From Candidatus Gastranaerophilales bacterium (GTDB lineage: Bacteria; Cyanobacteriota; Vampirovibrionia; Gastranaerophilales; Gastranaerophilaceae): DNA of 64,000 nt. The DNA is taken from positions 310,001-374,000 of the forward strand of contig CALUWF010000001.1 in NCBI GenBank assembly GCA_944324405.1, in the 5' to 3' direction. Positions 26,670 through 40,053 of this stretch are shown piece after piece. The position numbers and the translations under genes are program-made. Each line of letters begins with the position of its first letter. Position 1 is the first letter of the stretch. The notes beneath the pieces are model-generated. The model was given only the letters and a program-made list of their open reading frames with translations, was not told the origin of the DNA and made no database searches.

Positions 26670-27050
26670 ATGGCACAATATTACCATCTGAATGTCTACA
26701 AAAAATCTTTTGACTTCCTTGTCAAAGTTACACAGCTAACATCGCGCTTCCAGCGCGATTTCAGGCACACATTGGGCGAAAAGTTAAATAACGGTACAAT
26801 AGAGCTTATTGTGTTGATATACAAAGCGAACTCCGCACAAGATATGGGTGAACGGGTTAATTACATAAAAGAGCTTCTGGAGAAGCTTCAATACATCAAT
26901 ATTATTTTGAGATTATCCTGCGAACTTCACAACATTTCACAGGAACGCTTTGCCGAACTTGCCCTTATGTCACAGGAAATTGAAAAGCAGCTCAACGGTT
27001 GGCTTTCGCACAGTTCAAAAGTTTTTGCGGATAAAAAAACTTCTTTATGA
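26670..27050 (+). CDS. avd: Avd-like accessory protein of a diversity-generating retroelement
   Basis: 126 residues, predicted all-helical and basic, of the four-helix-bundle / 23S-intervening-sequence protein type to which DGR accessory protein Avd belongs (YHLNVYKKSFDFLVKVTQL, then a long amphipathic helix with ELLEKLQYINIILRLSCELHNIS). In studied DGRs Avd forms a basic pentamer that binds the reverse transcriptase and template RNA. It overlaps the reverse transcriptase by 4 nt (ATGA), so the two proteins are made together. The preceding 210 bp are very AT-rich with no other feature seen. Confidence 0.85.
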   Translation: MAQYYHLNVYKKSFDFLVKVTQLTSRFQRDFRHTLGEKLNNGTIELIVLIYKANSAQDMGERVNYIKELLEKLQYINIILRLSCELHNISQERFAELALMSQEIEKQLNGWLSHSSKVFADKKTSL

Positions 27051-28219
27051 GTAAAAAAGTAACTGATACAACGATACCTCAGGCTGAATTCAGCCCTGAG
27101 GCGCTTTTTGAGGCATATTACGATTGCCGAAGACACAGACGTGCAAATATACAGGCTGTGGACTTTGAGTTTGATTTGGAAAAAAACATTTTTGAACTGT
27201 ACGAAGAAATCCTCAACGACTCATATCAGGTAGGGAAAAGCATTTGTTTTGTCGTAACTCTTCCAAAGCCGCGCGAAGTCTGGGCCGGAGCTTTTCGTGA
27301 CAGAATAATACACCACCTTATATACAATGCCATAAAAGACAGGTTTGACAAGGTTTTTATAGATGATGTATTTAGCTGCATTCCAAAACGCGGAACGCTA
27401 AAAGGTGCGCAAAAAGCCGCTTTTTATGCTAAAAAGCTCACAAAAAATTACACTCAAAAAGCTTATTTTATGAAAGCCGACATCTCAAACTTTTTCAACA
27501 GTATAGATAAAGAAATTCTCTTTGATGAAGTTCGCAAATATGTCTATGAGCCTTGGCTTGTGCGGCTCATTGAAAAAGTCCTCTTTCACAACCCCAGAAA
27601 CAACGTTTCTATGAAATCCCCAAAATGGCTCTTTGAGCAAGTTCCGGCCTACAAAAGTCTTTTTAACATTGATGCAAAAAAAGGTTTGCCTATCGGCAAT
27701 CTGACAAGCCAATTTTTTGCAAATGTTTATCTCAATCCGCTCGATCAATACGTAAAAAACGAACTAAAATGCAAATATTATTTAAGATACGTTGATGACA
27801 TACTTCTTTTACATCAAGACGCAGGCTGGCTCAATCAGGCGTATTCAAAGATAAACCGTTTTTTGCTTGATAATCTTGCTATGAGCCTAAATCACAGAAA
27901 AAAGAATATGAACCTCATCTGCCGCGGATTTGACTTTGTAGGACACATGGTAAAACCAAACCGCATATTTTTAAGAACAACAATAATAAAAAAATCTTTT
28001 GAAACAATTAAAAAATGGGAAAAAAATCCAAACCGCTTTTGCCCGGAAGAATTGGAGATATTCAGAAACAAAATAAACAGCTACCTTGGAATGTATAAGC
28101 ATATAAACGGCTACAACCTGCGCAAAAAAATCTGCATGCGGGCAACCACCCTTTTTACTCATCCGGATGAAGACTTTTCAAAAATAATAATTACAAATTA
28201 CAACGAAGAAAAAAAATAA
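27047..28219 (+). CDS. Reverse transcriptase, DGR type
   Basis: 390 residues. DGR hallmarks: PKPREVWAGAFRDRIIHHLIYN near residue 73, KADISNFFNSI, GLPIGNLTSQFFANVYLN (residues 213-230; the SQ version of the motif that is QGxxxSP in most other RTs), and the catalytic YVDD box at 248-251. There is no maturase, endonuclease or RNase H domain, unlike group II intron enzymes. DGR RTs copy a template-repeat RNA with errors at adenines and place the cDNA in a target gene. Here no conventional template repeat is visible nearby, while 32 silent versions of the target's variable segment lie 3 kb away. The gene is convergent with the target. Confidence 0.9.
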   Translation: MSKKVTDTTIPQAEFSPEALFEAYYDCRRHRRANIQAVDFEFDLEKNIFELYEEILNDSYQVGKSICFVVTLPKPREVWAGAFRDRIIHHLIYNAIKDRFDKVFIDDVFSCIPKRGTLKGAQKAAFYAKKLTKNYTQKAYFMKADISNFFNSIDKEILFDEVRKYVYEPWLVRLIEKVLFHNPRNNVSMKSPKWLFEQVPAYKSLFNIDAKKGLPIGNLTSQFFANVYLNPLDQYVKNELKCKYYLRYVDDILLLHQDAGWLNQAYSKINRFLLDNLAMSLNHRKKNMNLICRGFDFVGHMVKPNRIFLRTTIIKKSFETIKKWEKNPNRFCPEELEIFRNKINSYLGMYKHINGYNLRKKICMRATTLFTHPDEDFSKIIITNYNEEKK

Positions 28220-28358: not shown

Positions 28359-29686
28359 TTAATCGTCATATTTTATCCAATTTAAATACACATAGCCGTT
28401 TTGGCCGGCAGAACCGCCGCCGGGGTTCGGATAGTTTGTAGTATCCTCGCTCCAGCCGCCTCCGCCGCCGCCTGCGCCTGCGGCACCGTATTGAGCCGAG
28501 TCATAAACATTATTTGGCGCAACAAATACAACGGTTGAGCCGTTTACGTTTGTATTTGTGCAAACGGTGCTGTCAATAAAAAGACCGCCGCAGGAACCTT
28601 TTGTGCCAAGTCCGCTGTCACCTCCGACGCCGCCCGAGGAGCCGCCAAAGCCGTTTGTGCTTGTAAATGTCTTGCCGTCTTTTCCGGATGAACCGGCTTT
28701 TGAATCCAAATTGCTTGTATCCGTTGCGCTTGTGTAAACTCCGCCGCCTGCACCGCCTTTGCCTTGTACTGCATCAGAGCTTGAAGTTGCAGAAGTTCCC
28801 GCACTTCCTTTAGTTCCGCCCTTTAAGGTGTATGTGAGCGAATCAAAAGTTATTGAGGTTGCGCCGCCGTCAGCACCGTTTGAACCGACTCCGCCCGCTG
28901 CGCCTCCGCCGCCCACTCTGATTGTATATTCTACACCGGCGCTTACGGGGATATCTTTTATTATTGCAAAGGCTCCGCCGCCTCCGCCTCCTCCGCCCGC
29001 TGCGGGATAAACTATATCATATTGGATTTCGGCAATGCCGTTTGCGCCTCTGCCGCCTTTACCTTTGTATACGTTTGAGGTTGAGCCGGAGATTTGAAAT
29101 CTTACTGTTCCGCCTCCGCCACCTGCGCCATAGCGCGAACCGTCCATTCCGTTTTCACTGTTGCTGTCGCCGCCTGAGCCGCCGCCCGTGAATGAAGAGT
29201 AGTTATATGCGCTTCCGCCGCCTGCGCCGCCTGTGGCCGAGGTATTGCCTTCTTTTTCATAGTTGCCGTTCACACCGTTTGGGCCATAGCTTGAACAATC
29301 TCTGTTTACCCATGATGTTCCGTTGTATTCTCTGCAAGTATTTTGAGCTTTTTTGCCTCCGCCGTCACCATAATCCGATGAAGTCGCTCCTTTTCCGCCC
29401 AAGCCGCCGGGTACTTCAATACCCCATTTTAATTTTCCGCTTGCATCATTCACTTTGATTGATGAAGCGGCGCCGTTTGAACCGTCACCTGCTGCCGCGC
29501 CCGAGCTGCCTCCGGCGCTTCCGCCCGCGCCTCCGGCAGCTCCATAGAGTATAATCTCTCCTCCGATGTTTGATTCAATTACATTTTTTGGTATTTCGAG
29601 ATTTTTTATGTAAGGAGCGCCGCCGCCTCCGCCGCCGGCGAAAGTGTTAAAGCGTAGAGCCAATTTCTCCAGGACACAGCGACCGA
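28359..29686 (-). pseudogene. Glycine-rich C-terminal half of the variable surface protein, now out of frame
   Basis: This open frame has no start of its own. It continues the upstream gene if one base is restored at the edge of the variable segment (near 29682): the protein would then read AFSVRCVLEKLALRFNTFAGGGGGG and run on for about 440 residues. The region is strongly Gly/Ser/Ala-rich with many GGxGG blocks, two cysteine pairs, and a terminal VYLNWIKYDD. It resembles glycine-rich tails of tail-fibre and adhesin proteins. No stop interrupts it, so the loss of frame is recent, reversible, or bypassed. Restored, the full protein is about 823 residues (28359-30829). Confidence 0.7.
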
Positions 29687-30829
29687 AAAGGCACGAGTAA
29701 GCTCTGTAGCGCTGGCTAATATTAATTTGCTTCCTTCCATGGAATAAATTGCAACTCTGCCCTCGGTAGTGGTATTCGTGTAATACGCATGAGCGCAACA
29801 ACTTTTACCGGTAGCGTCACGACATAAGTTAACCCCGCAATGGCACCTTGGCGACCCCAAAGCGGAGGAGTTGCAGTCACAAAGTTGTAAACCGTCTGAG
29901 CCTAAATACTTCGATAATTTTGCATTATTAACACTGGACTCCGCGTTAATGACTGCTTGCCATCCTGTCATTTCCGCGTTAGTCGGTAATCTCCAGTCAC
30001 CTGCGTTTGTACCTTCCGGGTTCCACTGTGCACATGAATCACGTGCGGCTGTCCATTGACATACCGTCCTTGTACATCCGCTGTAATTACTGCTGTGCGT
30101 ACCCCATGTTCCGCTGTTTGTACAATTTGAGGAAGTCGTGCCCGACCAACAGCAGTTTGTGGAACTTGAAGGACAAGTTCCCGAGCCTGCCGTGAGTTTT
30201 GTAACTGTTGATGCCATTGTAGGGCCGTTTGGATCACCTACGTTGTATTTTGTAACGCAAGTATTTTTTCCGCCCGAGCCGTTCATTGATGCGGGGATAA
30301 ACATCGCATTATATTTGTTGCAGTCAGCCTGAGATTGCGGGGCGCCCTGCTGTTGGGTGTAGGCACCGCCTCCGCCGCCTCCGCCGCCTCCGGCGAGATA
30401 GCTTATTGTAACATTTTTCATATTTTTGGTTATTTTAATTGTCTTTGTTTGCGAACTTCCTATTGATGAGTTTGCAGCATAGCTTTTTTGATCGAGCGAT
30501 ACGGTGGGAGTTGTCGCGCCCGCTCCTCCTCCGCCGCCTGATACCATTACAGCGCTTATTGAACTTACTCTGTTTGGAACAGTGAATTTACAATCAACCG
30601 CATTGGGGTCATCTGCCGCAGCCGAGCAGTCTGTAGCGAATTTGTCATACAAGAAAAGCTGACCTTCTGTCTTGTAACTAATATTTGCACGTTCTTTTAC
30701 TCTTTTTGTCAGAACAGGTGCAAAGAGTGTCAATATTATTGATATAATAAGAATTGCGACCAAAAGTTCAGCCAGAGTAAATGCGTTTTTCTTCAAACGC
30801 CAAAAGCCTGTTTTCATCATAAAATTCAC
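29606..30829 (-). CDS. Prepilin-anchored variable surface protein with C-type-lectin-like domain (expression site)
   Basis: 407 residues in the present frame, from a GTG at 30829 with AGGA 8 nt upstream. The N-terminus is a type IV prepilin signal (KKNAFTLAELLVAILIISIILTL) for export and assembly or anchoring. Glycine-rich blocks (residues about 90-150) and a Cys/Ser/Thr-rich part follow. Then comes a domain with WRLPTNAEM (Trp279), as in DUF1566 / Fib_succ_major C-type-lectin folds that DGRs commonly diversify. Its last third (about 319-381) is the variable segment and is identical to silent cassette 28. One base is missing just after it (TCGGTCGC instead of TCGGTTCGC), so the protein ends with 26 unrelated residues. 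It is convergent with the reverse transcriptase and divergent from the array. Confidence 0.8.
   Translation of the reverse strand: MNFMMKTGFWRLKKNAFTLAELLVAILIISIILTLFAPVLTKRVKERANISYKTEGQLFLYDKFATDCSAAADDPNAVDCKFTVPNRVSSISAVMVSGGGGGAGATTPTVSLDQKSYAANSSIGSSQTKTIKITKNMKNVTISYLAGGGGGGGGGAYTQQQGAPQSQADCNKYNAMFIPASMNGSGGKNTCVTKYNVGDPNGPTMASTVTKLTAGSGTCPSSSTNCCWSGTTSSNCTNSGTWGTHSSNYSGCTRTVCQWTAARDSCAQWNPEGTNAGDWRLPTNAEMTGWQAVINAESSVNNAKLSKYLGSDGLQLCDCNSSALGSPRCHCGVNLCRDATGKSCCAHAYYTNTTTEGRVAIYSMEGSKLILASATELTRAFSVAVSWRNWLYALTLSPAAEAAALLT
29688..29874 (-). repeat. Expressed variable segment, identical to cassette 28
   Basis: The 187 bp read on the minus strand match plus-strand 38485-38671 without a mismatch in my base-by-base comparison. 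The first differences on either side are A in the cassette versus T here (29875 and 29687), and 1 nt is missing near 29682. Beyond the shared CTTTGTGAC word homology stops, so exchange was limited to the cassette unit. Confidence 0.9.
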
Positions 30830-31282
30830 CGATTATTCCTCAAAAGCTACTCTTATAACATTAAAAAATTATTGATATATAACCTACAATATAACATATT
30901 TGTTTTTAATTTCAACCATGAATTATAATTATAAAAATAATTGTAACATTTGATGGAAAAAGTACTTAAAATATGTTAAAATCGGTCATTGATAGTTAAT
31001 TTTGCACGTTGACAATTGAATATTAAATTCACTGATTTATATTAAATATATCGGAATTTCCGATATTGATTAAACACTCCTTAGAGCGGTATGTTTCACG
31101 GAACATGCCGGAGAAGGTATTAAACTCGTTTTAAGGTAGCGGCAGAATGATACGCCGCTTAAGCTGTATACGGTTAACACATCGGACGTGCTTTATGAAA
31201 AGCGGCTTCATTTTATATTATGAAGCCGCAAAGTACGGCCGAGTGGCTTTTGGCTTTTAGCATACTGAAAACCTTAAATAAA
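30830..31282. promoter_or_regulatory. Control region between target gene and cassette array
   Basis: This gene-free stretch holds, in order: an AT-rich region that must carry the minus-strand promoter of the variable protein; a perfect -35 word TTGACA (31009-31014, plus strand) with only weak -10 candidates after it; a 17-nt palindrome TATCGGAA-T-TTCCGATA (31049-31065), a possible operator; RNA-like element E1; and a 10-bp hairpin GCGGCTTCAT...ATGAAGCCGC (31202-31229). A plus-strand transcript entering the array is plausible but not shown. Confidence 0.45.
31077..31163 (+). ncRNA. Structured RNA-like element E1, at the head of the array
   Basis: First of three related copies (with 37654-37738 and 39875-39955). 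Paired parts: CCTTA (31079-31083) with TAAGG (31132-31136); GAG with CTC; CGGTATGTT (31087-31095) with AACATGCCG (31102-31110); AGCGGC (31138-31143) with GCCGCT (31154-31159). The unpaired words GAG-A/C-AGG and TAAACTCGTT are conserved in all copies, while the stems change in compensating fashion. I do not recognise the family. The strand is inferred from its lead position before plus-strand cassettes. Confidence 0.6.
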
Positions 31283-34200
31283 CTTTGTGACTGGTGCGAC
31301 TTCGCTTATGGGTCGGTTCTTTGTTTTTATTCGATGGACAGCTGCCCGGGCGCACGGTTTGATTCAAAGTCAGATAATGCTTGCTATCCTTATGACTTAT
31401 GGGCAGGCTCTGACACCATGTTTCAGCTTTGCAGCGGTAATGCTTTCACCAGAGTCGCTACACCTGATTATGCCATTTCGGCGCGCTGTGTCCGGTATTT
31501 AATAAAAATGTGTTTATTGTATAGAGTAAACTTTAAAAAACTTTGTGACAACAACTCCTCCGATTTGGGGTCGATAATGTGCTTAATGGGTTATCCGTTA
31601 TGCCTCGGTACACCCAATAATAACAAATGCGGACCGCAAGACTATTTGACAGGAAATTTACATGGCACTAATGTTTGGTATTATACACTTTCCAGGGGTA
31701 AATTTGCTCAACATAATACTTTGTCAATGAAAGAAGCCTTTTCGGCGCGCTGTGTCCGGTATTTAATAAAAATGTGTTTATTGTATAGAGTAAACTTTAA
31801 AAAAACTTTGTGACCACGGCTCCTCCTCTAAGGGGTCGCTAAAGTGTTTTTGCGGGTCTTCTTCTTCCTGCAAAGGCAGTTATGACGACAAATGTCATAC
31901 TCATAACTATTGGTCGGGCAGTGCTACAGGAGAGAAATATTACGCCGCCAATTTGGATTCGGGCTCTTGGGTACGCTCGCCAAATCCCTCCGGATATCCC
32001 TTTTCGGCTCGCTGTGTCCGGTATTTAATAAAAAATGTGTTTACTTATACAATAAAACCTTAAAAAAACTTTGTGACTGGTACTCCTCCGCTTATGGGTC
32101 GGTATACTGTTCTTGGAATATAAGGTGTCCCGGGGCGCTAAGCGATTTAAGCACATCGGGAGATTGCAATATTCATGGGCATTGGTCACAGACGGCTTCA
32201 GGCGGCAGCTATTATGATTTAGGGCTTGGCGAGGGGCGTGCGCAATTGTATTTGAAAAAGCCGGGCTATGCCTTTTCGGTTCGCTGTGTCCGGTATTTAA
32301 TGAATTTGTGTTTATTTATACAATAAAACCTTAAAATAACTTTGTGAGCGCGGCTCCCCCGCTTGGGGGTCTGTGTATTGCGGAAGTACCCCTACCCCCG
32401 GGTGTTATGGCGCCCTTAATACGAACTGCGATCCCGCCTTTATATGGAGCTCGACTATGTCCGGCAACGGTTATCGCTATTTGTGGCTGCATAACAACGT
32501 TTGTTATATCGATACAGTTTCGGCCAATGACTCCTTTTCGGCCCGCTGTGTCCGGTATTTAATGAATTTGTGTTTACTTATACAATAAAACCTTAAAAGA
32601 ACTTTGTGACCGTTACTCCTCCTCTTTGGGGTCGCTGCATTGCCAACCGTCCGGCGGGTGCTTGGGCGCGGTTAATCCAAGCTGTGATGCGGCGTTTATT
32701 TGGAACTCGAGTATGGATGGCAGCAATTATCACTATATGAGACTGGATAACGGCGTTATTTATCACTCTGCACATTCGGCCAATGACTCCTTTTCGGCTC
32801 GCTGTGTCCGGTATTTAATTAATTTGTGTTTAGTTATGCAATAAAACCTTAAAAGAACTTTGTGACTACTCCTCCGCTTATGGGTCGATTTGGTGTCAAA
32901 GTTCAGGACTTTGCAGGGGCGCATCAGATGGCTGCTGTTACAGTAACACCTATTGGACTCTGACAGTACAGGGCACAAACCACTGGGAGTTCCATCTTAT
33001 TTTCGGTGAAATAGGAGACAATAAATGGGACGCTCGTTATGCCTTTTCGGTCGCTGTGTCCGGGGCTTAAAAAAACGTGTTTATAGTATATGGTAAACTT
33101 TAAAATAACTTTGTGACTGGTACTCCTCCGCTTATGGGTCGATTTGGTGCTATAGCAAAGAGTACACTTGTCTTGGCGCGCAGTCTGATACGGGTTATAC
33201 CGGCTCTTGCCACCCGCTTGATGTATGGTCAGAGTGTACGGGCGCAAACACCTGTTTGTTTTTTCAGCTTGGTAGCGGCAAATTTGTAATCAACTCGCGT
33301 AATATGCGTTATGCCTTTTCGGTTCGCTGTGTCCTGTAGCTTAATAAAAAAAATGTGTTTATTGTGTATAAAAGCCTTAAAATAACTTTGTGACCTCAAC
33401 TCCTCCTCTTTGGGGTCGCTTATGTGCTTAAGTACAGCGAATTTGTGCTATGGAGCAGTTGCTGACCCGAGTTTTGCCCATGGCTGTTACTCTTTTGCCA
33501 TTTGGTCAAGCACCCCTTCAAGCAGCGGCCGTTATTATGACCTGTGTGTTTGGAACGGCAGGGGGCAAATTTTAGAGCGTCCTGCGGGCTATGCCTATTC
33601 GGTTCGCTGTGTCCGGTATTTAATAAAAAATGTGTTTACTTATACAATAAAACCTTAAAAAGACTTTGTAACGGCTACTCCTCCGCCTTGGGGTCGATAT
33701 TTTGCTTTGACGGGGTGAGTCTTTGTCGCGGCAGCGGCTCGGACGGCGTTACTGTCGACAATTGTGCTGTTCATGATGTGTGGTCAGGCACCGCTGGTGG
33801 CGGCGGGTATTATTTTTTGTTTAACTATCATGTTCTAACCGCACAAAACTCATATCCCGCAAATTTTGCCTTTTCGGCCCGCTGTGTCCGGAGGTTAAGA
33901 GAAAATGTGTTTATAGTAGGCAGTAAGCTTTAAATTGACTTTGTGACAGTCACTCCTCCGCTAATGGGTTGATATACTGTTGGGATGGGCCGTACCGTTG
34001 TCTTGGCAGCTGGGGGAAAAATGGCGAGCAGCATCGCTGCTATGTTCATAATATTTGGTCAAGTACACCCGGGGGCTATGGCTATTATGTTTTGTTCAAT
34101 TACGCAGGTTCATCGGCGGATGTAACATCTGACCCTGTGTGTGCCTTGTCGGCTCGCTGTGTCCTGTAGCTTAATGAAATTGTGTTTATTATGTATAAAA

Positions 34201-37200
34201 ACCTTAAAAAGACTTTGTGACGGCGGCTCCTCCGCTATGGGGTTGTGCAGATGTTATATGGCTACTACTTGCCTTGGGGCGTATAGTTCAGCTTGCCAGA
34301 CTGACAACCTTTGGGCGATAACCCAGGGCAGCACAGGATATTATTATCTTACGTTGAATTACGGCGAAGTAAACGTTAGATCAGTTAACCTGCCATATGC
34401 CGCCTTTTCGGCTCGCTGTGTCCGGTATTTGATGAAATTGTGTTTATTGTGTATAAAAACCTTAAAAAACTTTGTGACTGGATCTCCTCCTCTTTGGGGT
34501 CGATATACTGTCCTATTGATACAAGGTGTCCCGGGGCGCTGAGCGATTCAGGTACATCGGGAGATTGTTATAGGCATGCGCATTGGTCACAAACAGCTTC
34601 AGGTAATGGCTATTATGATTTAGGGCTTGGCGATGGGCATGCGCAATTGTATTTGAGAAAGCCGGGCTATGCCTTTTCGGTTCGCTGTGTCCGGAGGTTA
34701 AGAGAAATTGTGTTTATAGTAGGCAGTAAGCTTTAAAATAACTTTGTGACACGCACTCCTCCTCTTTGGGGTCGCTACAGTGTTACAACCACGGTACCAA
34801 TTGCCCCGGGGCGCTTAGTGACGGTGGCGTTGTCGGACGCTGCCATCCTCACGATTTATGGTCAGGCTCAGTGTCAGGTGCTACTCACTACTTTTTTCTT
34901 ATGGGCAATGGCAAACTGGTTGGGAAAAACCCTTATTGTACGCCTCGTTATGCCTTTTCGGTTCGCTGTGTCCCGTAGCTTAATAAAATTGTGTTTATAG
35001 TATATGGTAAGCTTTAAATTAACTTTGTGACCAAGACTCCTCGGCTTCGGGGTCGATAAGATGTTATTGCGGTTCTAAATACGGCTGTAACGGGAGTATT
35101 GACGGCGGGCGTGCCCATGCCCATCATTTCTGGTCGGGCACTCCTGTAGGAGGGCACTATTATGCAGGCCAGATGAGTTCCGCTTCTCTCACGGTGCCAA
35201 ACCTAAATCCGAGATACGCCTTTTCGGCTCGCTGTGTCCGGTATTTGATAAAATTGTGTTTATTTATACAATAAAACCTTAAAATAACTTTGTGACGGCA
35301 GCTCCTCCGCTTCGGGGCTGTGCAAATGTTACAATGCCACTACTTGCCTTGGGGCGTATAGTTCAGCTTGCCAGACTGACAACCTTTGGGCAATAACTCA
35401 GGGCAGCACAGGATATTATTATCTTACGCTGGTTTATGGCAAAGCATCCGTTAAATCGGTTAATCTGCCGCATGCGGCCTATTCGGTTCGCTGTGTCCCG
35501 TAGCTTAATAAAATGTGTTTATAATATGCAGAAAACTTTAAAAAACTTTGTGACTACAGCTCCTCCTCTAAGGGGTCGCTTTGCTGCAATGGCGGGTTGT
35601 ATTGTCTTGGAGGGATTAATCTTCAATGCGACCCGAATGAAATTTGGTCAAGTGTACTCAAACAAAGTGACCGCTATTATGCCCTTAGGATAGCAGGCGG
35701 CAACGTAAGCTTTCCAGACCGAGGAATGAGGGACACCTTGTCGGTTCGCTGTGTCCTGTAGCTTAATAAAATGTGTTTATTGTATAGAGTAAGCTTTAAA
35801 ATAACTTTGTGACCACAGCTCCTCCGCCTTGGGGTCGATAAGCTGCTATCATAAAACGCTTACCTGCCTTGGTGCACAATATGACCCGGGGTATACTTAT
35901 GCCTGCTATCCGCTTGACATATGGGCACAGTGCACAAGTTCAAACGCCTGTTTGTTTTTTCAATTGGGTTTTGGGAAGCTTTTATTAAGTTCGCGGACGC
36001 CGGGATATGCCTTTTCGGTTCGCTGTGTCCGGAGGTTAAGAGAAATTGTGTTTATCTTATAAAGCAAACCCTAAATAAACTTTGTGACATCAACTCCTCC
36101 GCTGCGGGGTCGCTTAGGTGCGATATACGCGTTAGTTCCTGTATTGGCTCAATGGAAAATTCATGCCGAAGTTTTGATGTCTGGACAGGAAATGCATACG
36201 GCAGCACATATTACTATTATCATTTACAATACGGCGGATTAACAAGAGGTGTGCGTGAGCCGATTGACGCCTTTTCGGCTCGCTGTGTCCCGTAGCTTAA
36301 TGAAATTTGTGTTTAAGTATATGGTAAGCTTTAAAATAACTTTGTGACTGGGACTCCTCCGCTTCGGGGTCGGTTGTATGCTCCTTTCACCTTACGGCTT
36401 GCAAAGGCGCTTATGGCGGGTATTGCCATGCGCATGGCATATATTCCCTTAATGGTGATGGCAGCAGCGCGTATGTGTTTGCATTAGATAACGGCAAGTG
36501 CGGTGTAAACTTTCACACAGTTAAGCGCGCCTATTCGGCTCGCTGTGTCCGGTATTTAGTAAAAATGTGTTTATTGTGTATAAAAAACTTTAAAATAACT
36601 TTGTGACCGCGACTCCTCCTCTAAGGGGTCAATTAGATGTTACAGCGGCCCGGATTGCCTTGGCGGCGAGAATGAGCACTGTGACCCTTTCGGTTATTGG
36701 TCAGGCAGTGCCCAATCAAGCAACGTCTATTACTATCTTCGATTTATTGACGGAGAGGTCGGGTTTAGGTCTATAACCGCAAGGGAAACCTTTTCGGCTC
36801 GCTGTGTCCGGTATTTAGTAAAAATGTGTTTATAATATGCAGAAAACTTTAAAAGTACTTTGTGACAGCGACACCTCCGTTATGGGGTCGATTATGTGCA
36901 ATTGGGGCCCTTCGCGCTGTAATGGAGGCCATGGGAACGTTTGCTACCCGCAAAACTATTGGACAGGCACAAATTCAGGGAGTTATGCCTGCCTGTTTGA
37001 CGAAGGGGGGCTTCGCTGTGCAAATACATACTTGCTAACGCATTGCTTTTCGGTTCGCTGTGTCCGGTATTTAATTAAAAATGTGTTTATAGTATATGGT
37101 AAGCCTTAAAATAACTTTGTGACCACGGCTCCTCCGCCTTGGGGTCGATAAGCTGCTATCATAAAACGCTTACCTGCCTTGGTGCACAATATGACCCGGG

Positions 37201-37606
37201 GTATACTTATGCCTGCTATCCGCTTGACATATGGGCACAGTGCACAAGTTCAAACGCCTGTTTGTTTTTTCAATTGGGTTTTGGGAAGCTTTTATTAAGT
37301 TCGCGGACGCCGGGATATGCCTTTTCGGTTCGCTGTGTCCTGTAGCTTAATGAAATTGTGTTTATAATATGCAGAAAACTTTAAAAGAACTTTGTGACCA
37401 CGGCTCCTCCGCTTTGGGGCAGCCAAGATGTTACAGGCACAGTTCCGCATGTCCGGGAGCTATGAGCGATTGGACTAATGCACCTGTTTGCAATCCGCAT
37501 GACGTATGGACAGGCCCTGCCGCATATTATTTTAGTATGGTTAACGGAAAATACGGCGGCCCGGTGCAAGCGCATGGGAGATATGCCTTTTCGGCTCGCT
37601 GTGTCC
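31283..37606 (+). repeat. Silent variable-segment cassette array, block 1 (cassettes 1-24)
   Basis: Twenty-four units, each from CTTTGTGAC to CGCTGTGTCC, starting at 31283, 31541, 31806, 32069, 32340, 32602, 32858, 33108, 33386, 33664, 33939, 34213, 34470, 34742, 35023, 35288, 35546, 35805, 36080, 36340, 36599, 36858, 37115 and 37390. Units are about 200-230 bp, with spacers of about 50 bp. Each encodes the pattern LCDxxSSxxGSxxC ... CxGA ... C..HDxW[TS]G ... YY ... G ... FS[AV]RCV, that is, the last third of the lectin-like domain with conserved cysteines. They have no start signal or promoter, and most end at a stop in the spacer. Cassettes 18 and 23 are identical over 213 bp; 12/16 and 4/13 are mosaic relatives. 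Confidence 0.9.
37128..37340 (+). repeat. Cassette 23, exact copy of cassette 18
   Basis: These 213 bp equal 35818-36030. The bases just before differ by one A/G change (35817 A, 37127 G) inside the NNC codon after CAC; the 15 bases before that agree again. The tails after GTGTCC differ (GGAGGTTAAG against TGTAGCTTAAT). The core therefore moved between different spacer contexts, which is further evidence of cassette-level copying. Confidence 0.9.
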
Positions 37607-37758
37607 GGTATTTAATTAAAAATGTGTTTAGTTTACAATAATATTTAAAACACACCTCAGAGCGGATTGTATCAAGGTATAATCCGGAGCAGGAAAATAA
37701 ACTCGTTTAAGATAGCGGCAGAAGATATACCGCTTAAGTTAATAAAATCTTAAAAAAA
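37607..37758 (+). ncRNA. Structured RNA-like element E2, splitting the array
   Basis: Second copy of the element; the core is 37654-37738. Paired parts: GAG (37660-37662) with CTC (37702-37704); CGGATT (37663-37668) with AATCCG (37681-37686); AGCGG (37714-37718) with CCGCT (37730-37734). The outer CCTCA helix seen in E1 and E3 is weak here. It leads directly into short cassette 25. Confidence 0.6.
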
Positions 37759-37874
37759 CTTTGTGACTGCAACTCCTCCGCTTAGGGGTCGCTTATACGT
37801 TATGTAGTAAGCGCCGCTATCCCCTGACGTTGGCAACCGCTGCCAGCCGGTGTGCCTTTTCGGTCGCTGTGTCC
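37759..37874 (+). repeat. Cassette 25, short degenerate unit with edges like the expressed gene
   Basis: Only 116 bp. Its left edge GACTGCAACTCCTCC and right edge TTTTCGGTCGCTGTGTCCTGG, including the 1-nt deletion, match the expressed gene's edges rather than those of most cassettes. The core carries stops and does not encode a lectin segment. It may be a decayed unit or a product of a failed exchange that copied the expression-site edges. Confidence 0.7.
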
Positions 37875-37930
37875 TGGTGTTTATTTTATGTGTTTTTCTA
37901 TACAGTAAAGCCCTAATAAAATTGTAAGGA

Positions 37931-39768
37931 CTTTGTGACGCATACTCCTCCGCTTTGGGGTCGCCAAGGTGCCTCTACATTCAAAGCTGCTCAGGCGCAC
38001 CGAATGCCTATTGCTACCCTTACGCCCATTGGACTTCTGCCCCTTGGAATACGCCCACTACACATTATTGGGACAAGCTAATGTTAAACGGCGGACTTGC
38101 TAACGACTCACAGCCCCTTACGGTGCCCTTGTCGGTTCGCTGTGTCCTGTAGCTTAATAAAAATGTGTTTAATTATACGGTAAACTCTTAAATAAACTTT
38201 GTGACCTCTACTCCTCCGCTTTGGGATCTGCGCAGTGTTTTCTTGGCGTAGATATGTGCAAAGGTGCCCTTAGCGACGGCGGACGGCCGTATGTGTGTTA
38301 CCCTCATCACCTGTGGACATGCACTTCGGCAAACGGAGGGTTTGCATGGGGAGCCTTAGACACGGGGCTATTCTTGCCTACCGCTACAGCCTATCAGACA
38401 GGCTTTGCCTTTTCGGTCGCTGTGTCCGGTATTTAATAAAAATTGTGTTTTTATACAGTGAAGCTTTAAATTGACTTTGTGACAGCAACTCCTCCGCTTT
38501 GGGGTCGCCAAGGTGCCATTGCGGGGTTAACTTATGTCGTGACGCTACCGGTAAAAGTTGTTGCGCTCATGCGTATTACACGAATACCACTACCGAGGGC
38601 AGAGTTGCAATTTATTCCATGGAAGGAAGCAAATTAATATTAGCCAGCGCTACAGAGCTTACTCGTGCCTTATCGGTTCGCTGTGTCCGGTATTTAATAA
38701 AAATTGTGTTTTTATACAGTGAAGCTTTAAATTGACTTTGTGACGCATACTCCTCCGCTTCGGGGTCATCAAGGTGCTATTGCGGATTTAATTTATGCCA
38801 CGGTGCTATCCCAAACAGTTGTTGCGCCCATGCGTATTACACAGGCACTTTGACAGGTAATAGTGTTAAGCTTTATACCTTACAGGAGAGCCGGTTGTTA
38901 TTAGCCAACGCTACAGAGCTAACTCTTGCCATTTCGGTTCGCTGTGTCCGGTATTTAATAAAAATTGTGTTTATTTTATACGGTGAAGCTTTAAAATAAC
39001 TTTGTGACGCCTACTCCTCCGCTTTGGGGTCGGTTCAGTGCTGGCCTTATGAGGGCAATTGCCCGGGCGCTGTTGACACTGACGGTTATACCGGACGCTG
39101 TCACCCGCATGACACGTGGACAGGCACCTATGAGTCAAATAAACGCTATTTTGTCATATTGCAAGACGGTACTTTATCTCTTGTAGGGCCGCGCTATGAT
39201 AGTCGTTACGCCTTTTCGGCCCGCTGTGTCCTGTAGCTTAATGAAATGTGTTTATCTATACGGTGAAGCCATAAAATACTTTGTGACTACGACTCCTCCG
39301 CCAAGGGGTCGATGATATGTTATTGCGGGAAGGCTTCTACATGCAGAGGCACCCCCGACGGGCTTTCTCATGCCCATCATATCTGGTCAAGCAGCTCCAC
39401 GGGAGGAAACTATTATACGGGTAATTTAAATTATTCTTCCATGACGGTAAGGGGTTTTGGCCCCAAATACGCCTATTCGGTTCGCTGTGTCCTGTAGCTT
39501 AATAAAATGTGTTTATCTATACGGTGAAGCCATAAAATACTTTGTGACATGTCCTCCTCCGCCTTGGGGTCGCCAAGGTGTCTGAATATTCGTGTCTGTT
39601 ACGGCTCTGTCGGTGATTACGGTTCCGCTGACCCTTGCCACCCTCATGATGTATGGTCAGGCACTTATTCAGGTAATATGCGCACATTTTTTAACCTGGC
39701 AGGGGGCAGTTGGATTCGCGCCATCGACAGTGCTACAGTGCGTTATGCCTTTTCGGCCCGCTGTGTCC
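37931..39768 (+). repeat. Silent cassette array, block 2 (cassettes 26-32)
   Basis: Seven full units starting at 37931, 38197, 38475, 38736, 39000, 39279 and 39540, with the same edge words, spacers and encoded pattern as block 1. Cassette 28 (38475-38688) is the current donor match of the expressed gene. Cassettes 28 and 29 are partial relatives. Cassette 27 carries the TCGGTCGC deletion found in the expressed gene. Spacers here tend to read TATACAGTGAAGC or TATACGGTGAAGC, slightly unlike block 1, so the block may have grown separately by local duplication. Confidence 0.9.
38485..38671 (+). repeat. Donor-identical core of cassette 28
   Basis: The 187 bp are identical to the expressed variable segment at 29688-29874 (inverted). 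About 46 adenines on the coding strand are all unchanged, so this transfer was faithful rather than adenine-mutagenic within the core. Confidence 0.92.
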
Positions 39769-40026
39769 GGGATTTAATAAAATGTGTTTTTTCTGTGAGA
39801 TTTTAACGGCTATACAAAGGCTAAAACAACATCTTGATAATTTAGAAAAAAAACGTTAAACTTAAGTTTGGATATCCTCAGAGTGCGAGAATTTACGGAT
39901 TTTTGCAGAGCAGGATAACTAAACTCGTTATGAGGTAGCCTGAATAATACGGCTTAAAAAATATTTGTTCAACCCTCATAGGTATGCTGCCGCCTTTTCG
40001 GTCGCTGTGTCCTGGAGTTTGGAAGT
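39769..40026 (+). ncRNA. Structured RNA-like element E3 and terminal cassette fragment
   Basis: Third copy of the element (core 39875-39955). Paired parts: CCTCA (39876-39880) with TGAGG (39931-39935); GAG with CTC (39924-39926); TGCGAGAAT (39884-39892) with ATTTTTGCA (39899-39907); AGCC (39937-39940) with GGCT (39951-39954). About 35 bp later a lone right edge GCCTTTTCGGTCGCTGTGTCCTGGAG (39991-40016) appears without a cassette core; it matches the expressed gene's right edge. The rest holds no gene. Confidence 0.55.
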
Positions 40027-40053
40027 TTAAGACCTCTTTTTGAGGTCTTTTTT
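40027..40053 (+). terminator. Terminator closing the cassette array
   Basis: AAGACCTC-TTTTT-GAGGTCTT, an 8-bp stem, with a run of Ts, directly after the last cassette fragment. It suggests the array or element E3 is transcribed on the plus strand. Confidence 0.85.

Follow-up and report, generated by a model that had tools for sequence, protein, structure and literature searches.

The 64,000-nucleotide (nt) window analysed here (Candidatus Gastranaerophilales bacterium, GenBank assembly GCA_944324405.1, contig CALUWF010000001.1, positions 310,001 to 374,000) harbors three copies of an element that, judged from sequence, is a real, conserved and covarying folded RNA on the template side of a diversity-generating retroelement (DGR). 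Very probably it constitutes the 5′ structural module of the DGR template RNA; its place and pairing suggest recruitment of the reverse transcriptase (RT) with Avd, and arrest of complementary DNA (cDNA) synthesis. This role is assigned because the element lies directly 5′ of template repeats (TRs), covaries, forms a long-range helix (P4) that ends at the homology between TR and variable region (VR), is used in trans and heads arrays. The window is part of contig C1 of a 1.8-Mb metagenome-assembled genome (MAG; G000), and all evidence is drawn from assemblies, the majority of them MAGs. Throughout, G-numbers denote genomes, L-numbers loci, and R1, R2 and R3 covariance models of the element. 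The three copies and their P4 strands, the latter located by a P4 pairing search, are:

31078-31163, + strand: element copy 1 (P1, P2 with YNMG loop, P3), heading the first sub-array; R1 74.6 bits, R2 70.5 bits, copy 1 itself being in the alignments underlying the scoring models
31130-31137, + strand: 5′ strand of P4 in copy 1, TTTAAGGT
31271-31278, + strand: 3′ strand of P4 (P4′) of copy 1, ACCTTAAA, 4 nt before cassette 1; similar strands precede most other cassettes
37654-37738, + strand: element copy 2, heading the second sub-array; R1 81.5 bits
37706-37713, + strand: 5′ strand of P4 in copy 2, TTTAAGAT
37747-37754, + strand: P4′ of copy 2, ATCTTAAA
39875-39956, + strand: element copy 3, heading a truncated template stump (type B of the sister species); R1 84.8 bits
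39928-39935, + strand: 5′ strand of P4 in copy 3, TTATGAGG
39974-39981, + strand: P4′ of copy 3, CCTCATAG

An original prediction, made from this stretch of DNA, had described three copies of one structured element whose stems differ yet keep pairing. An R1 covariance search of the whole genome returned exactly three copies, all of them in the window, on the + strand and where they had been placed, and the stems named do pair; for the outer one (CCTTA/TAAGG, CCTCA/TGAGG), an assignment to P1 plus P4 is the better one. P1 (UCCU/AGGA) shows many replacements among homologues, CCU pairing with the AGG just 3′ of the first hairpin. P2 consists of about 10 pairs capped by a YNMG tetraloop (UACG, CACG, CAAG or UAAG) and flanked by a GAG/GAG internal loop; a conserved YCG (‘CUCG’) and then P3 follow. 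Covariation is far above that of shuffled and slid controls, as expected of the selected RNA structure that had been proposed. Among 22 homologues, 91.1% of the cells are paired (65.4% when shuffled), with a covariation of 0.715 compared with 0.238 for shuffled alignments (0/500) and at most 0.152 for slid ones. With 36 distinct homologues these values become 93.0% (57.5% when shuffled) and 0.929, compared with 0.270 (0/500) and at most 0.198, and 18 of the 19 pairs have changed on both sides. The alignments were fitted to the model, which biases them towards structure, yet both kinds of control remain far below. Thirteen distinct sequences found by R2 and not used in building it are 92.5% paired, with a covariation of 0.730 vs. 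0.233. Single copies fold better on the + strand (z about -2.0 to -2.3) than on the - strand (-0.9 to -1.4). Across the 36 distinct sequences the commonest pair type is G-U at one P2 position and U-G at the loop-closing pair, which, together with the YNMG cap, indicates an RNA of the + strand.

A short CUC/GAG helix suggested by RNAalifold was rejected; no more than 72% of its cells pair, and its formation would compete with that of P4. Bulges in the stems defeated a plain string search for AGAG-stem-YNMG-stem-GAG in the regions preceding RTs, which had no match, and a whole-genome search with copy 2 as query gave meaningful E-values for copies 1 and 2 only. Rfam, searched in gathering and permissive modes, returned no match at the element and no family above its gathering score, which agrees with the earlier failure to assign it; neither an Rfam family unrelated to RTs nor, in this genome, any copy far from the RT-cassette locus was found. 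The element is a previously uncatalogued RNA (no Rfam family), conserved across DGRs of several phyla.

P4 is a newly found helix that joins the strand 3′ of the conserved YCG to one immediately preceding the template; from locus to locus, changes on one side are compensated on the other. TTTAAGG, TTTAAGA and ATGAGG of the three window copies pair with the respective P4′ strands listed above. Pairs elsewhere include GTGAGG/CCTCAC (G014B), CGAAA/TTTCG (G005A), CAATGT/ACATTG (G175 C66), TCGGAGT/ACTCCGA (L101), GACAGGCC/GGCCTGTC (L125) and GGCCGTCC/GGACGGCT (L205). When partners were sought anywhere within 200 nt, own partners scored 279.4 and permuted ones 230.3 (standard deviation 8.6; 0/20000), P4 having first been noticed in part of this set; in this analysis one control offset (-10) was mildly positive too (16/2000). 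The same permutation gave 6/20000 for the elements of G175 and G392, some of them shared with the first set, and 129/20000 for previously unused loci. A fixed 30-nt window missed the P4 partner of L175, which the open search found. In the fixed-window test, the template starts for the four G175 elements were chosen with P4′ already in view, and reliance is therefore placed on the open-window tests alone. Where the distance was measured, the 3′ strand of P4 ends 2-7 nt before TR/VR homology (9 nt in one exception with a diverged VR), and it is mainly this that makes P4 a candidate for defining the 5′ boundary of the copied template.

The order of parts is clearest in the relatives. In G014, G004 and G005 (RT 70-73% identical), the RT is followed by an opposite-strand target gene, element A, one A-rich TR, element B, a linker, a stump ending in CGCTGTGTCCTGGAG and a terminator; in G005 the RT and TR lie on separate contigs. 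G014 and G004 also carry a second, RT-less locus consisting of target gene, element and TR, with no element downstream. Compared with this distant TR, the VR beside the RT of G014 has 15 mismatches in 216 positions, of which 14 fall on TR adenines; against the nearer TR it has 55, of all kinds. Evidently, then, the VR derives from the distant TR, and a TR headed by the element acts here in trans with no further element 3′ of it. In sister and other TR/VR pairs, mismatches fall on A in 14/15, 21/23, 20/26, 13/13 and 18/20 cases. G221 has a canonical single unit, and in the operons L044, L110, L113, L117, L120 and L156 the element is localized between avd and TR or just upstream of TR. Such avd-TR-RT operons with the element occur in other Gastranaerophilales, in Omnitrophota and on viral contigs. 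Over 154 DGR loci from genomes and viruses, R2 gave 17 matches at E<1: 13 precede the RT by 279-621 nt on its own strand, and the other 4 likewise adjoin A-rich repeats; R3 adds further loci. The family of the window has matches in 26/383 genomes and 12/41 genera. The extra copies looked at in other genomes precede TRs, cassettes or a template stump. R1 matches at L074 and L075, with no TR or cassettes downstream, were rejected. Genome G003 contains decayed elements and stumps beside an RT remnant (L070:3570-3860, L069:8990-9075), a dying copy of the system.

In the proposed mechanism, Avd and RT would bind the P1-P2-P3 body of the transcript, and P4 would close the RNA where the template begins on its 5′ side; RT would thus copy the template and stop at this point, and the cDNA would replace the VR of a pilin-like target gene. 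The earlier idea of a handle for RT-Avd, or an origin of template RNA, is borne out as far as the links to the RT-Avd system and to template RNA are concerned, and binding itself we infer. In the window, the single A-rich template would have been replaced by two tandem arrays, with one element each, plus a third element with a conserved stump. The remaining features are:

31283-37606, + strand: first sub-array with 24 intact lectin-like cassettes (204-232 nt each; spacers about 47-51 nt)
37759-37874, + strand: internally deleted cassette directly 3′ of copy 2
37931-39768, + strand: second sub-array with 7 intact cassettes; the one at 38475-38688 matches the expressed VR
39974-40012, + strand: P4′ of copy 3 and template stump ending in CGGTCGCTGTGTCC
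40029-40049, + strand: terminator-like hairpin with a T run
26670-27050, + strand: bAvd (PF22296 45.8 bits, phrog_3206)
27047-28219, + strand: DGR-type RT (PF00078, phrog_1423)
28359-30829, - strand: target gene with a prepilin-type N-terminus, weak Lcl_C similarity, VR and glycine-rich part, now in two frames
29672-29885, - strand: expressed VR in the target gene, from comparison with the cassettes

The array, carried by a gut bacterium, spans about 9 kb, and its 31 intact cassettes (31283-39768) are stop-free open frames (LCD..SSA.GS..C....SxRCV) with a mean amino-acid identity to one another of 37% (range 23-99%). An A-rich TR is absent from the window, and AAY codons account for 96/2174 in the cassettes vs. 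15-18 of about 68 in sister TRs. The window has a DGR-type RT with its Avd partner, and relatives of this RT at 50-76% identity occur in loci with A-specific TR/VR pairs. The expressed VR is identical to cassette 38475-38688 at 212/214 aligned positions plus a 1-nt gap, a single instance whose direction is unfixed. Transfer therefore appears close to faithful and looks almost non-mutagenic, in one direction or the other; such a cassette might exchange with the expression site almost unchanged through low-error cDNA or gene conversion. Two near-identical cassettes with different flanks (35805-36030 and 37115-37340) resemble the outcome of gene conversion within the array. At 29606-29885 the VR end (..CGGTCGCTG..) is one base shorter than in most cassettes (CGGTTCGCTG), placing the glycine-rich rest out of frame; on visual inspection, G004, L039 and L042 have VRs that look the same, and that of G014 reads through. 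The shorter end is possibly a phase switch or an assembly state. A second prepilin/glycine-rich gene with a VR-like end (..HSVRCVR..) on contig C47 of the same genome (L093:2978-5215) is a possible second target. The stump (P4′ and the last ~25 nt of a template, with a VR-like CCTGGAG end, then a terminator) follows the last element in four species (39974-40012; L038:8520-8640; L068:6960-7090).

Element-headed arrays are not unique to the window. G175 and G392, from one other genus, have 8 and 10 elements, and on the contigs examined these are followed by same-orientation cassettes, of which each array yielded between 1 and 23. Two elements are situated at the end of a contig. Because several contigs of the sister species are interrupted at the target gene or the array, array sizes elsewhere are lower bounds. 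The one RT found in G175 is on a contig other than those of the arrays. VR-like, diversified sequence occupies the template place in the L101 unit and in the second half of the RT-less G014 template (L067:6120-6340, where that half equals diversified VR sequence), and it therefore appears that, in this clade, diversified copies overwrite templates. Cassette arrays may be the end state of this overwriting. The literature searched described neither DGR cassette arrays nor DGRs in Gastranaerophilales.

A further, rather doubtful proposal is that of an RNA-guided choice, in which copy 1 would dock via P4 before any of the 24 cassettes of the first sub-array, looping out the others, and RT-Avd would copy alternative templates into the single expression site. 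In 27 of 32 cassettes, a 7-9-nt complement to the P4 strand of copy 1 stands at a fixed place before the cassette, scoring 16.7 on average; P4 strands from other elements reach no more than 11.5. All 32 spacers retain a GTGTTT flank 3′ of the cassette. Nearly all variants seen (RCYTTAAA) are G-U compatible, which favors constraint without proving docking; either each cassette is able to dock with copy 1 or the spacers were simply inherited. Docking of P4 to every cassette does not hold in the g51 arrays. If the proposal is true, past variants, rewritten into the template locus, would be stored in the array as a heritable library.

Several observations weigh against the assignment of the element as template head. 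Among the DGR loci scanned, R2 and R3 have no match in BPP-1 or in most Pseudomonas/Burkholderia-type DGRs, and the module is thus not universal. In the g51 arrays, P4′ sits 30-210 nt or more from the first cassette found. Copy 3 and element B of the sister species head a mere stump. Only 2 of 51 template adenines (4%) differ between cassette 38475-38688 and the VR, where canonical pairs show about 27-38%; a TR/VR pair differing mainly at template adenines is not present, and because of this and the missing A-rich TR the window is classed as DGR-derived rather than as a canonical DGR.

The position of copies 2 and 3 and of sister element B also invites comparison with the DGR spacer (Sp) RNA, which lies 3′ of the TR in BPP-1: in the window, G014, G004 and G005 one copy is likewise 3′ of a template, and such copies might prime cDNA into the upstream array. 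This is improbable, given that distant operons carry the element only 5′ of TR, that the RT-less units of G014 and G004 have none downstream although that of G014 is the evident source of a VR, and that copies 2 and 3 are each followed on the 3′ side by a P4′ strand of their own. A cis-acting regulator of the template transcript, an attenuator or riboswitch-like leader not bound by RT-Avd, would suit copy 1, which sits close to the presumed transcript start, in divergent orientation to the target gene, with promoter-like matches at 30861-31043 (consensus matches only). In avd-TR-RT operons, however, the element is internal and adjoins TR, and P4′ tracks the TR edge rather than a start site or terminator, making such a regulator very unlikely.

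The original prediction further saw the copies as delimiters at the start, middle and end of one array, or as a recombination signal. Each copy heads its own unit with a matched P4′ downstream, and both suggestions are therefore unsupported. A folded, attC-like DNA site for gain or shuffling of cassettes would accord with the presence of an array and with the ability of the element to fold, but the element occurs once per array or unit, in contrast to the one attC site per cassette of integrons; it also precedes single TRs that have no array, lies 5′ of the template in the same orientation in all relatives examined, and has G-U pairs and a YNMG loop that favor a one-strand RNA. This reading is largely refuted and retains a scarcely appreciable probability.

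Taken as the head of the template RNA, the element bears on a question, how the template is delimited and the cDNA ended, that has so far been worked out mainly for one phage system. A module common to DGRs of several phyla and to viral contigs would provide a searchable covariance model, a way to template loci remote from any RT, one of which, judged from sequence, works in trans, and a target for point-mutation tests.

In BPP-1, RNA flanking the TR is required and a motif in the 3′ end of avd terminates reverse transcription (PMC12875486). Like the element, the template RNA of BPP-1 (avd 3′ flank, TR, Sp) has TR-flanking RNA whose 5′ part lies at or after the avd 3′ end, and, as proposed here, it works with RT and Avd through a terminating 5′ motif (PMC12875486). 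Unlike in the element-bearing loci, the TR directly follows the avd stop codon, and the same 5′ RNA structure was not found in that locus (L255), a distinction made by model search and not by three-dimensional structure. The silent-cassette systems Neisseria pilS/pilE and Borrelia vlsE combine one expression site with an array of promoterless variant cassettes. To our knowledge, copies at several array heads, or action in trans, have not been described for BPP-1. The window shares with the silent-cassette systems one surface-protein expression site (here pilin-like), intact promoterless cassettes (31 stop-free cassettes and one VR) and a near-identical expressed copy, seen in one cassette/VR instance of unfixed direction. 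It differs in that RT and Avd adjoin and a structured RNA heads each array. In insect Dscam, a docking RNA pairs with selector RNAs; by analogy only, one 5′ strand could pair before any of the alternative cassettes (27/32 here), but there is no splicing, and common descent of the spacers would account for the matches as well. As the arrays suggest, a cassette-switching archive can arise from a hypermutating retroelement, which would link DGRs to variation of the pilS and vlsE kind.
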